A stretch of DNA of 64,000 bases from Nitrospira sp. (lineage in GTDB: Bacteria; Nitrospirota; Nitrospiria; Nitrospirales; Nitrospiraceae). This document shows, piece by piece, positions 59,796-63,516 of the stretch. The notes below the pieces were generated by a model. It was not told where the DNA came from and searched no databases. It saw nothing but the letters and a program-made list of their open reading frames with translations. The stretch is taken from the NCBI GenBank assembly GCA_018242665.1, contig JAFEBL010000005.1, positions 12,049-76,048 of the forward strand, written 5' to 3'. Each line of letters opens with the position of its first letter. Within the stretch, counting starts at the first letter, position 1. The position numbers were made by a program, and so were the translations under genes.

Positions 59796-60248
59796 ATGAA
59801 AGTGAGCCTTCGAGCTACGTACGGGATTATTGCCGCTGTAGACCTTGCATTACACGACGGTGAACAGCCTGTGTGTGCGAAGTCCATCGCCAAGCGCCAG
59901 GCGATTCCGGCCCGGTTTCTCGAACAAGTGCTGCACGCGATGAAAAAAGCTGGAGTGGTGACGAGTCAACGCGGGGCGCAGGGGGGATATGTATTGAGCC
60001 GCAAGCCGTCGGATCTATCGGTCGCGGACATCCTTGATGCCCTGGAAGGTCCCCTGCTTGCCGGAAACGGCGAGGCCGGTCCCAAGAGCGCCACGTCGCG
60101 AGCCGCGAAGCAAGAGGCGTTGCTCGCCCACATTTGGGACCGTGTGAAGCGGGCGGAATTGAGTGTCCTATCGGAAGTGACCGTCGAAGAATTGGCGAAG
60201 CGCCAACGAACCCTCGAGGCTCAACACACATTAATGTACCACATCTGA
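59796..60248 (+). CDS. Rrf2-family transcription regulator
   Basis: A 150-aa winged-helix regulator (IscR/CymR family). MKVSLRATYGIIAAVDLALH, SIAKRQAIPARFLEQVL and GAQGGYVLSRKPSDLSVADI match the family. The three Cys that hold the Fe-S cluster in IscR are not present (only one Cys, in VCAKS), so it is more like CymR, which senses cysteine supply through partners. Position just before sulfite reductase and cysH supports control of sulfur assimilation, perhaps with self-control. Confidence 0.9.
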   Translation: MKVSLRATYGIIAAVDLALHDGEQPVCAKSIAKRQAIPARFLEQVLHAMKKAGVVTSQRGAQGGYVLSRKPSDLSVADILDALEGPLLAGNGEAGPKSATSRAAKQEALLAHIWDRVKRAELSVLSEVTVEELAKRQRTLEAQHTLMYHI

Positions 60249-60289: not shown

Positions 60290-62776
60290 ATGATCAGTTC
60301 ACATACAGCGGCCCTCCGCCCGGCCGTCAAAACCGAGCCTATTCCTCCCCACATTGCGGAGGAGATCGAGACATTCGAAGCGGAAGCCCATCGCGTTCTG
60401 GCCGGGGATCTCTCAACCGACATCTTCAAGCCCTTTCGGCTGCAATATGGCATTTATGGTCAGCGTCAGCCGGGCGTGCAGATGGTCCGCATCAAGATTC
60501 CATTCGGTGGCCTGACGGCCAATCAGGTACGGCGGGTGGCCGAATTGGCCGACCAGTTCGCCACCGGTGTGGGGCATGTGACGACGCGCCAGGACATCCA
60601 GCTGCATTTCGTGGAGCTGAAGCATGTTCCGGAGATGATGCGGTTGTTGGCCGCGGTCGGGCTGACAACGCGTGAGGCATGTGCCAACACGGTCCGCAAT
60701 GTCACTGCCTGCCACCTGGCGGGTGTCTGTCAGGGCGAGGTGTTCGATGTGACGCCTTATGCCAAGACGGTGGCCTACCATCTCTTGCGCAATCCACTGA
60801 ACCAGAGTCTTCCGCGGAAATTCAAGATTGCGCTCTCCGGTTGCCGCCAGGATTGCGCCCTTACTCCCATTCACGATATTGGGCTGCTGGCAGCCAAGCG
60901 GGCTGACGGGACCATCGGGTTTCGAATGGTCGCAGGTGGCGGACTGGGCTCGACGCCGAGGATGGCGCAGGTGCTGAGAGAATTTACGCCCATGGAGGAA
61001 TTGCTGCCGAGTATCGAGGCCGTCATCAAGGTGTTCGACACGCTTGGTAACCGGAAGAATCGCAACAAGGCCCGGATGAAGTTCGTCATCGAAAAGCTTG
61101 GCTTTGACGAGTTTAAACGCCGGTGGGAAGGGGCCTATGCGGCCATGGGCTACGCCGTGCCGACCCATGAACCGATCAAACTGCTGGAGTATGCCGATAC
61201 GCCGCCGTTGATCATGCCGACGAAAGCGACGAGCAGCACCAACGGAAACGGGAATGGGCATGGGCCGGTGGCCGGCTCGCTGAATGGACAAGAAACTGCG
61301 TTCCAGGCCTGGAAGCGCACCAACGTGGTGCCGCAACGTCAGGCCGGATTCGCGACCGCAGCCATTAAGCTTCCCATGGGCGATCTCATGGGCGACCAGA
61401 TGTGGGTGGTGGCTGATTTGGCCGAGCGGTATTCCAATGGTAACATCCGCACCACCATCAATCAAAACATGGTGATTCGCTGGATTCCGGAAACCCGCCT
61501 GGAAGAATTTCATGGCGAGCTCGTGGCGCATAGCCTCGGCGATCCCGGTGCCGAATTGGTCGAAGACATCATCGCTTGCCCCGGAACCGACACCTGCGGC
61601 TTGGGCATCACGTCATCCAAGGGGATGGCCCGCGCTCTCGCCGAAGTCTTTCCCGCCGGTCAGGTGCCTGAAGATCTACGGGATGTGAGCGTCAAGATCA
61701 GCGGCTGTCACAATTCGTGTGCCCAGCATCACATCGCCACCATCGGGTTGCACGGTGTCGGCAAACGTCTGGGAGACCATACGGCGCCCCACTACGAACT
61801 GCACCTCGGCGGCCATGTGGATGGCACGCCGAAAATCGGGCAATTGGCCGTCAAGTTGCCGGCGAAGAGTGTCCCGGCTGCTGTTCGTCATTTGGTGGAT
61901 GTCTACCGTCGCGATCGCGCGACGGGCGAGAGTCTGCAATCGTTTATCGGCCGGGTGGGGAAACATGTCCTCAAGGACGAACTGATTCCCTACACGTTTG
62001 TGCCGCCGTATGAGCAGGATTCCACCTATTACTACGATTGGGAAGGTGAAGCAGAATTTGTCTTAGAGGATCTGGGCCCCGGCGAGTGCGCGGGTGGTGC
62101 GTTGGAAATGATCGATGACCGGATGTTGGAGGCGGACCAGGAACTCTATCAAGCGAAGTTGTTGGTCGAAAAACATCAATATGCCTTGTCGGTCAATAAA
62201 TCGTACCGAGCGGTGCTGGCTGCGGCCAAAGGGTTGTTGGTGACCGAGGGATTGGATCCGGCCACCGATGCGGACACGTTTCAGGAGTTCGATCAGCGCC
62301 TGGCGAGTAAGGGCATTGTGCCGGCCACATATGCCAATCTTGGCGCGCAGGTCGGTGATCTGGGATCGAAGGATGCGACTGCAGCGGAGGCCACGGAAAA
62401 AATGGCTTTTGCTAAGCGGTTTCTCGCAGTCTGTCGGGCGGCGACGGAACAAATGGGAAAGGATCTCAAATTGTCTCAAGTCAAAGAAGAAGTAGTGCCG
62501 ACTCCGCCGCCGACCGTAGCGCCGGCCGCGCCGGTGTCCACGGCGCCGGTGTACGATTTGCGTGGCGTGGCTTGCCCCATGAACTATGTGAAGACCAAGC
62601 TGAAGCTTGAGATGATGGACAACGGCGAGCAGCTCGAAGTGTGGCTCGATGCGGGAGAGCCGATTCGCAATGTGCCCACGAGTTTGCGGAACGACGGCCA
62701 CAAGATTCTCCACGAAGGGCCCCTGGAGCCCGAGGCGAAACATTTCAAAGTGCTGGTGGAAAAGGTCGAAGGGTAA
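60290..62776 (+). CDS. Siroheme sulfite/nitrite reductase fused to a TusA-like domain
   Basis: An 828-aa fusion. GAGGT 4 nt before ATG 60290 sets the start. Two ferredoxin-like/siroheme halves are present. Half 1 (about 40-300) has TTRQDIQLHF and Cys141/147/185/189 (CHLAGVC and GCRQDC). Half 2 (about 335-570) has Cys430/436/473/477 (CPGTDTC and GCHNSC). The Cx5C...Cx3C set that binds 4Fe-4S and siroheme is thus complete in both halves; in usual assimilatory Sir or Nir it is in the second only. A helical segment (about 605-725) and a TusA/SirA-like domain (about 754-828) with Cys762 in ACPMN follow. It reduces sulfite (most likely, given cysH) or nitrite. The TusA Cys may carry the product sulfur. 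Confidence 0.88.
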   Translation: MISSHTAALRPAVKTEPIPPHIAEEIETFEAEAHRVLAGDLSTDIFKPFRLQYGIYGQRQPGVQMVRIKIPFGGLTANQVRRVAELADQFATGVGHVTTRQDIQLHFVELKHVPEMMRLLAAVGLTTREACANTVRNVTACHLAGVCQGEVFDVTPYAKTVAYHLLRNPLNQSLPRKFKIALSGCRQDCALTPIHDIGLLAAKRADGTIGFRMVAGGGLGSTPRMAQVLREFTPMEELLPSIEAVIKVFDTLGNRKNRNKARMKFVIEKLGFDEFKRRWEGAYAAMGYAVPTHEPIKLLEYADTPPLIMPTKATSSTNGNGNGHGPVAGSLNGQETAFQAWKRTNVVPQRQAGFATAAIKLPMGDLMGDQMWVVADLAERYSNGNIRTTINQNMVIRWIPETRLEEFHGELVAHSLGDPGAELVEDIIACPGTDTCGLGITSSKGMARALAEVFPAGQVPEDLRDVSVKISGCHNSCAQHHIATIGLHGVGKRLGDHTAPHYELHLGGHVDGTPKIGQLAVKLPAKSVPAAVRHLVDVYRRDRATGESLQSFIGRVGKHVLKDELIPYTFVPPYEQDSTYYYDWEGEAEFVLEDLGPGECAGGALEMIDDRMLEADQELYQAKLLVEKHQYALSVNKSYRAVLAAAKGLLVTEGLDPATDADTFQEFDQRLASKGIVPATYANLGAQVGDLGSKDATAAEATEKMAFAKRFLAVCRAATEQMGKDLKLSQVKEEVVPTPPPTVAPAAPVSTAPVYDLRGVACPMNYVKTKLKLEMMDNGEQLEVWLDAGEPIRNVPTSLRNDGHKILHEGPLEPEAKHFKVLVEKVEG

Positions 62777-62784
62777 GGACCATC

Positions 62785-63516
62785 GTGGCGGAATTGACGG
62801 GCAATCAACAGGCACTCGATCGTCCTACGGATGACGAGCTGAAATCGCTGAGCGATTCGTTCGAGACCATGCAGCCGTGGGAGGTGCTGGCGTACGCGCT
62901 GAAGGCCCACCGGCACCGGATCGTCCTGGCCTGTAGTTTCGGAGCAGAGGATGTCGCGCTCGTAGATATGGTGCATCGCATCGATCCCGAGACACCGCTG
63001 TTTTACCTGGATACCGACTTTTTGTTTCCTGAAACACTCGAGGTGCGCGACCGTATTATTGCGCGGTATGGGTTGAAGCCAGCCCAAGTTATTCAGGTGA
63101 AGCCGCTGCTGACGCCGGAGCAGCAGGCCGCTGAGCATGGCGAGGCCCTATGGGCGAGCAAGCCCGACCAATGTTGCGAGATCAGGAAGATCGAACCGCT
63201 GACCCGCGTTCTGGCGCACTATCGCGCCTGGATTACTGGAATCAGGAGAGATCAGGCCCCGACGCGGGCCAATGCCGGATTGGTTGAGTGGGATAAGAAG
63301 TTCCAGTTGATCAAGTTCAATCCGCTGGCTCGCTGGACGAGTGAGCAAGTGTGGATGTATCTCCAGCTCCATGAAGTTCCGTACAACACGCTCCACGACC
63401 GCAACTACCCCAGCATCGGTTGCACGCATTGCACTGCGCCTGTCCTGCCGGGTGACGACCCGCGCTCCGGCCGGTGGAAGAATTTCGGCAAGACCGAGTG
63501 CGGACTGCATAAATAA
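62785..63516 (+). CDS. cysH: Assimilatory adenylyl-sulfate (APS) reductase, CysH
   Basis: A 243-aa reductase forming sulfite from APS. The nucleotide site is VLACSFGAEDVAL. The 4Fe-4S cysteines of the APS-type enzyme are present: Cys130-131 (CC) and Cys213/216 (CTHC). The C-terminal KTECGLHK carries catalytic Cys239. PAPS-specific CysH lacks the four cluster Cys, so APS is the expected substrate. The start is GTG 62785 with AAGGA upstream. It lies 8 bp after the sulfite reductase, so the two successive steps are coupled. Confidence 0.93.
   Translation: MAELTGNQQALDRPTDDELKSLSDSFETMQPWEVLAYALKAHRHRIVLACSFGAEDVALVDMVHRIDPETPLFYLDTDFLFPETLEVRDRIIARYGLKPAQVIQVKPLLTPEQQAAEHGEALWASKPDQCCEIRKIEPLTRVLAHYRAWITGIRRDQAPTRANAGLVEWDKKFQLIKFNPLARWTSEQVWMYLQLHEVPYNTLHDRNYPSIGCTHCTAPVLPGDDPRSGRWKNFGKTECGLHK

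Follow-up and report, generated by a model that had tools for sequence, protein, structure and literature searches.

A Nitrospira assimilatory sulfite reductase with a predicted second [4Fe-4S] cluster and a cysteine hinge leading into a TusA domain

The gene sir lies in a 64,000-nucleotide stretch of Nitrospira sp. DNA (the window) and encodes a fusion of sulfite reductase, HEPN-like, and TusA domains. The best explanation of our results, to which we give a probability of about 0.6, is that Sir is an assimilatory reductase with one siroheme-[4Fe-4S] centre, a further [4Fe-4S] cluster free of siroheme, and a tail carrying C600 that leads to TusA. The gene and its parts are as follows.

60290..62776, + strand: sir (sulfite reductase-HEPN-TusA fusion), an open reading frame of 828 aa with an ATG start
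60455..61126, + strand: N-terminal half, with NIR_SIR_ferr at 56-123 and NIR_SIR at 132-279; it holds R100, R136, K177, and K179
60710..60856, + strand: N-half cluster motif, C141, C147, C185, and C189 (Cx5C-37-Cx3C, residues 141-189)
61322..61969, + strand: C-terminal half, about residues 345-560, with the canonical cluster motif and without the basic siroheme-binding residues
61577..61720, + strand: C-half cluster motif, C430, C436, C473, and C477 (Cx5C-36-Cx3C), for the canonical siroheme-coupled cluster
62069..62098, + strand: DLGPGECAGG hinge, residues 594-603 with the invariant C600, equivalent to the C-terminal -GECAx tail of short relatives
62120..62275, + strand: HEPN-like helical bundle, Pfam match at 611-662, with helices extending to about residue 720
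62552..62764, + strand: TusA domain, residues 755-825, with a CPMN motif containing C762

A ribosome-binding site of the GAGG type is present upstream of the ATG codon. According to Pfam, the pair of NIR_SIR_ferr and NIR_SIR domains occurs twice in this single chain, each above its cut-off. The initial annotation had placed a complete four-cysteine set in each half, followed by a helical segment and a TusA-like domain with Cys762. Both sets were found exactly at residues 141-189 and 430-477, and the downstream region matched HEPN and TusA in Pfam, with C762 present. When the protein sequence was shuffled 100,000 times, one Cx5C...Cx3C pattern appeared in 18 shuffles and two appeared in none. 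The AlphaFold2 model of Sir, built with 66 family sequences, had a mean pLDDT of 90.1 and a pTM of 0.78, and it matched the solved folds of Mycobacterium tuberculosis NirA, plant NiR/SiR, and CysI with TMt values of about 0.7 to 0.8. By sequence, the closest solved structures were plant and mycobacterial ferredoxin-dependent nitrite/sulfite reductases, with CysI also among the relatives.

We propose that Sir adopts the usual Sir/Nir pseudodimer, in which R100, R136, K177, and K179 of the N-half would hold siroheme and sulfite, and the siroheme would be coupled to a [4Fe-4S] cluster on C-half cysteines 430, 436, 473, and 477. N-half cysteines 141, 147, 185, and 189 would be occupied by a second, siroheme-free [4Fe-4S] cluster, a putative remnant of an ancestor with a centre in both halves. 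This cluster could act as an electron store or relay in the six-electron reaction, or it could give stability. Ferredoxin is the presumed electron donor. C600, on a flexible segment, probably reaches the siroheme pocket and accepts the sulfur in persulfide form, which it would hand on to C762 of TusA in the long members of the family.

The conservation of the N-half cysteine set was examined in a family sample of 68 members, the criterion for membership being a cysteine equivalent to C600; the relatives outside Nitrospirota were collected by scanning GTDB genomes. These relatives belonged to Nitrospinota, Poribacteria, Methylomirabilota, Acidobacteria, Omnitrophota, Armatimonadetes, Gemmatimonadetes, Myxococcales, Actinomycetes, Chloroflexi, Aquificota, Dadabacteria, and Bacteroidota. 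Among the Nitrospirota homologues examined, the N-half set was nearly universal. Four N-half cysteines were present in 50 of the 68 members, three in 2, two in 9, and none in 7, and the 50 members with the full set spanned many bacterial phyla. Ordinary Sir/Nir enzymes had been described in the initial annotation as carrying these cysteines in the second half only. This was borne out in that all four N-half cysteines were seen together in none of the 26 canonical Sir/Nir proteins compared. Eleven of the 26, all NirA-type, nevertheless kept C141, C185, and C189 and had D, S, N, A, or K in place of C147. Such three-cysteine NirA-type N-halves were seen at L002 (733-2340), L104 (3660-5366), L158-L163, L168, L169, and L178, and a partial or Asp-ligated cluster is conceivable in these ordinary nitrite reductases.

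On a tree built without the motif columns, the full-set state changed 9 times. The motif was lost in several separate lineages, often with all four cysteines and elsewhere with two of the four, and the losses were partly stepwise, since CSCH and CxCC states were seen. The CSCH state (C141, S147, C185, and H189 in an EGC...DH context) recurred in apparently separate lineages, at L035-L037 (f8 lineage), L114/L117 (Omnitrophota), and L170 (Thermus). Full-set members differed from the rest of the family at C141, C147, C185, C189, S183, G184, and three bulky residues (V108, L120, and Y502), and S183 and G184, which lie between the N-half cysteines, were lost along with them. The full-set trait is essentially the cluster motif and little besides. 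Independent-pairs sign tests for coordinated cysteine loss gave no p value below 0.05 among the results listed, with too few pairs and little power. Because the complete four-cysteine motif is conserved, has been lost in separate lineages, and nearly coincides with the separating columns, the N-half cysteines are likely to bind a second [4Fe-4S] cluster; they may instead have a structural or even a nonmetal role. Since a cluster is also present in the halves of Asr/Fsr, DsrA, and DsrB, and three of the cysteines persist in the N-halves of NirA-type proteins, a retained ancestral site with repeated loss is the simplest reading of the N-half set, regain being possible.

The second conserved feature is the cysteine of the hinge. 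E599 and C600, in the sequence GPGECAGG (GxGECA motif), were invariant in 66 aligned members, an alignment that leaves out L128, a locus without the GECA motif, and C600 was invariant regardless of the presence of TusA. C600 in the GxGECA motif is a new observation of this work. In all 18 of the 18 complete short members, the chain ended exactly two residues past the cysteine equivalent to C600. The C terminus of these proteins was -GECA followed by A, V, T, I, or G, or -SECAT in L131, and they included sequences from Acidobacteria, Chloroflexi, Omnitrophota, Methylomirabilota, Myxococcales, Actinomycetes, and Thermus. In the model of Sir, the hinge segment at residues 591-610 had pLDDT values of 63 to 69 and lay between rigid domains; the terminal residues of a short-member model averaged 66. 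DsrC and CysH have C-terminal cysteine arms, which the invariant C600 on its flexible segment resembles. By analogy, this segment appears to be a mobile cysteine tail, and C600 may touch the siroheme pocket or accept the product. Whether it handles sulfur covalently is, in our estimate, an even bet.

In the long members, the chain runs past C600 into a helical segment and, in 37 of 66, into TusA; TusA was absent from 31 of 68. The HEPN family (PF05168) matched Sir weakly at 611-662 (24.2 bits; cut-off, 22) and was found in 17 of 66 members, and the helical segment of the Sir model matched 2hsb (HEPN) with a TMt of 0.79. The HEPN assignment is one of predicted fold only, and no RNase activity is claimed. 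The TusA family (PF01206) matched with 55.7 bits against 28.6, the domain matched 3lvj_C with a TMt of 0.81, and C762 was conserved in the TusA-bearing members. Compared with TusA/YedF carriers, the domain shares the fold and the active cysteine, and it differs in its fusion to a sulfite reductase and in having CPxN, where the usual TusA motif is CPxP. One family member, at L038 (3556-6240, - strand), has two tandem C-terminal TusA-like domains. Since 16 of the 31 TusA-less members had the full N-half set, that set and TusA are not functionally tied, and a link between them is not obligate. No link of the N-half set with AprAB versus CysH neighbours was seen in the related loci compared.

TusA normally accepts sulfane sulfur, not sulfide, so a transfer from Sir would need a four-electron product or a persulfide intermediate. 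Direct uptake of sulfur from Sir by TusA is possible, and it fits the C600 hinge and a CysO-type gene cluster in the same genome. The narrower proposal that TusA receives its sulfur from C600, with C762 as the presumed acceptor, falls a little short of even odds. The gene cluster in question is on contig C15 (L191, 1-4917), where CysK is adjoined by genes for a second PALP enzyme, a ThiS-family carrier, NIL, ThiF, and JAB; the ThiF protein consists of the ThiF domain alone. In Mycobacterium, a CysO/MoeZ/Mec thiocarboxylate route to cysteine is known, whose carrier depends on a sulfur donor for its charging. The L191 cluster likely specifies a route of this type, by analogy, and the TusA domain of a sulfite reductase fusion would be well suited to supply its carrier with sulfur. 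In its most extended form, the scheme would be a widespread branch of aSirs with two [4Fe-4S] clusters and one siroheme, in which persulfide sulfur passes from the siroheme to C600, to C762, and on to a ThiF/CysO-type carrier, with little or no free sulfide. We hold this complete relay to be rather doubtful.

Alternatively, Sir could be an ordinary sulfide-releasing aSir. Its N-half cysteines would then be a structural leftover (binding Zn, forming a disulfide, or doing nothing), and its HEPN-TusA part would be an independent sulfur-trafficking module whose fusion serves expression or localisation only. The full N-half set is absent from canonical enzymes and from 18 family members, the 31 members lacking TusA point in the same direction, and a free cysteine synthase is encoded in the genome. 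However, the exact Cx5C...Cx3C geometry is kept across phyla at great distances, S183 and G184 disappear together with the cysteines, and C600 does not vary with or without TusA. An ordinary enzyme of this kind is consequently unlikely.

We also compared the residues that would be needed for a second siroheme. In these enzymes, one half holds the siroheme of a site and the other half holds its cluster (PMC10229431). With the two cofactors of one site on opposite halves, a second siroheme in Sir would need the C-half as its holder. R100, R136, K177, and K179 were kept in the N-halves of all aSirs compared, except for a change of K179 to N in nitrite reductase L002, and a half-by-half alignment showed that Asr/Fsr halves keep them as well. 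DsrA has T, R, K, and K there, and DsrB has R, S, H/R, and R, basic at most of them. In DsrAB, the structural siroheme is bound by the DsrB half, opposite the DsrA cluster. The C-half of Sir has N391 and otherwise nonbasic or variable residues where siroheme-binding halves have this set. Across the family, the C-halves resemble those of CysI and NirA: N, Q, S, G, E, or D occupies the first siroheme position, and the remaining positions are variable and mostly nonbasic. When full-set members were compared with the other family members, no siroheme-type residue of the C-half covaried with the N-half set. Given a C-half without the basic residues and without such covariation, a cluster without siroheme is the favoured reading of the second site. 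Sir has the assimilatory Sir/Nir signature, namely, R100, R136, K177, and K179 in the N-half and C430, C436, C473, and C477 in the C-half; the loss of the N-half cluster motif, a further assimilatory trait, was not found in it, as its N-half set is full.

The initial annotation had suggested two siroheme-[4Fe-4S] centres in one chain. The conserved N-half motif supports the second cluster, and the unequipped C-half argues against the second siroheme. In the alignment to the halves of CysI, NirA, and DsrAB, the C-half resembled those of CysI and NirA, not the siroheme-equipped DsrB. A protein with a complete siroheme-[4Fe-4S] centre in both halves, one catalytic and the other structural or catalytic, would be a one-piece functional analogue of DsrAB. 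This arrangement accords with both four-cysteine sets being complete, including the siroheme-bridging position C189, and with the ability of DsrA and Asr/Fsr halves to carry the motif and the siroheme residues together. But the C-half lacks the basic siroheme-lining residues found in N-halves, Asr/Fsr, and mostly DsrB, nothing of siroheme type in it covaries with the N-half set, and a half-domain tree sets Sir apart from DsrA and DsrB. A second siroheme, and with it a double-siroheme enzyme, is quite improbable as judged from these residues.

In the half-domain tree, for which a root was not inferred, the aSir-type N-halves were all found in one part and the C-halves all in a second, and DsrA and DsrB lay next to each other away from both. 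This grouping points to one old duplication, not to a DsrA-DsrB fusion. Sir scored 33.5 bits with the DsrA model TIGR02064 (cut-off, 392.85) and 74.7 bits with the DsrB model TIGR02066 (cut-off, 341.5), and Pfam found no Fer4 match for an inserted 4Fe-4S ferredoxin domain. A fusion of DsrA and DsrB by descent was rejected on the basis of the tree and the family scores, and the fused DsrAB-type arrangement proposed earlier does not hold as a statement of ancestry.

The reading of Sir as an assimilatory enzyme agrees with its neighbours, which are listed below.

59796..60248, + strand: Rrf2-family regulator, an upstream neighbour kept in Nitrospira relatives
62773..63516, + strand: cysH (PAPS reductase domain), with a probable GTG start, placed from the sequence, in a 4-nt overlap with the sir stop codon
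63569..64000 and past the window end, + strand: trpD2-like gene of the glycosyltransferase-3 family, continued in L156 (3618-4688)

Downstream of the trpD2-like gene, cysD and then cysNC follow in the genome. The gene order in Nitrospira relatives is Rrf2-sir-cysH-trpD2-cysD-cysNC, often with a Mrp-type iron-sulfur carrier. The sulfate assimilation operon of these relatives consistently includes the TrpD-like glycosyltransferase-3 gene. Other lineages have the order aprA-aprB-sir-sat, or CysH/Sat with siroheme synthesis genes. At nine related loci (L035-L038, L040, L041, L043, L044, and L113), aprA-aprB and sat, not cysH, stand beside sir, an apparent swap of the sulfite-making enzyme, and the full N-half set is present in six of the nine. 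Therefore, sir stands with whichever enzyme produces sulfite. In the context of cysH, cysD, and cysNC, Sir is almost certainly an assimilatory sulfite reductase, its activity being predicted. Neither DsrA nor DsrC was found in the genome, which also encodes a second, ordinary NirA-type protein. A dissimilatory or detoxifying role, with Sir substituting for DsrAB beside AprAB and Sat and with sulfur entering via TusA, which feeds rDsrAB in sulfur oxidisers, would suit the nine aprAB/sat-linked loci, but it is very improbable given partners in the window genome that belong to PAPS-dependent assimilation, the lack of DsrC, and assimilatory-type catalytic residues (R100, against T in DsrA). Two other arrangements were observed among the related loci. 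At L104 (3660-7267), a NirA-like reductase and a two-cluster one with a C-terminal GECAA stand in tandem, followed by HemD, CysH, and Sat. The Sir/Nir proteins encoded at L053, L054, L164, and L165, from the same phylum, are about 1070 aa in length; they carry a long extension at the N terminus, and their siroheme residues are changed (R177 and N179).

Among known systems, NirA/SiR and CysI (PF03460 plus PF01077, twice) share with Sir the fold, the C-half cluster motif, all N-half siroheme and sulfite residues, and an operon with cysH; Sir adds the full N-half cluster motif, the invariant GxGECA cysteine in a tail or hinge, and the HEPN and TusA domains. Its scores were below the NCBIfam cut-offs for NirA (279.8 against 523) and CysI (130.2 against 756.55). 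The nitrite/sulfite reductases of Bacteroidota and Thermus (for example, those on Persicobacter and Thermus oshimai plasmids) belong to the same family and have the GECA cysteine, at the C terminus or in a hinge, and siroheme synthesis neighbours, whereas their N-half set is reduced (SDSS in Persicobacter and CSCH in Thermus) and both lack TusA. DsrAB also has two halves, each with a cluster motif, but Sir is a single chain, has no inserted ferredoxin domain by Pfam, stands apart in the half-domain tree, and has a C-half unequipped for siroheme. The C-terminal cysteine of DsrC acts in trans, and the C600 tail would resemble it in cis, as a functional analogy. The single-half reductases Fsr and AsrC have half-domains with the cluster motif and keep the assimilatory-type arginine (PMC10229431). 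In contrast to Fsr, where each protomer of the homo-oligomer bears siroheme, the halves of Sir are fused and specialised.

No aSir with both cluster motifs, a GECA tail, or a TusA/HEPN fusion was found in the open-licence literature, an absence that is weak evidence; Nitrospinota genes of the sulfate assimilation pathway have been named simply Sir (PMC10839748). According to the standard account, aSirs arose by duplication, after which one of the two siroheme-cluster sites was lost (PMC10229431). A large living family with both cluster motifs, together with the three-cysteine NirA types, makes the loss of the second site directly testable. A recent claim is that aSirs release zero-valent sulfur (PMC13188885), and with such a release by ordinary aSirs, as reported, a persulfide relay would make chemical sense. 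Sulfur could leave the enzyme bound to protein by way of the invariant C-terminal cysteine, whether this stands by itself or leads into TusA, and the route is testable.
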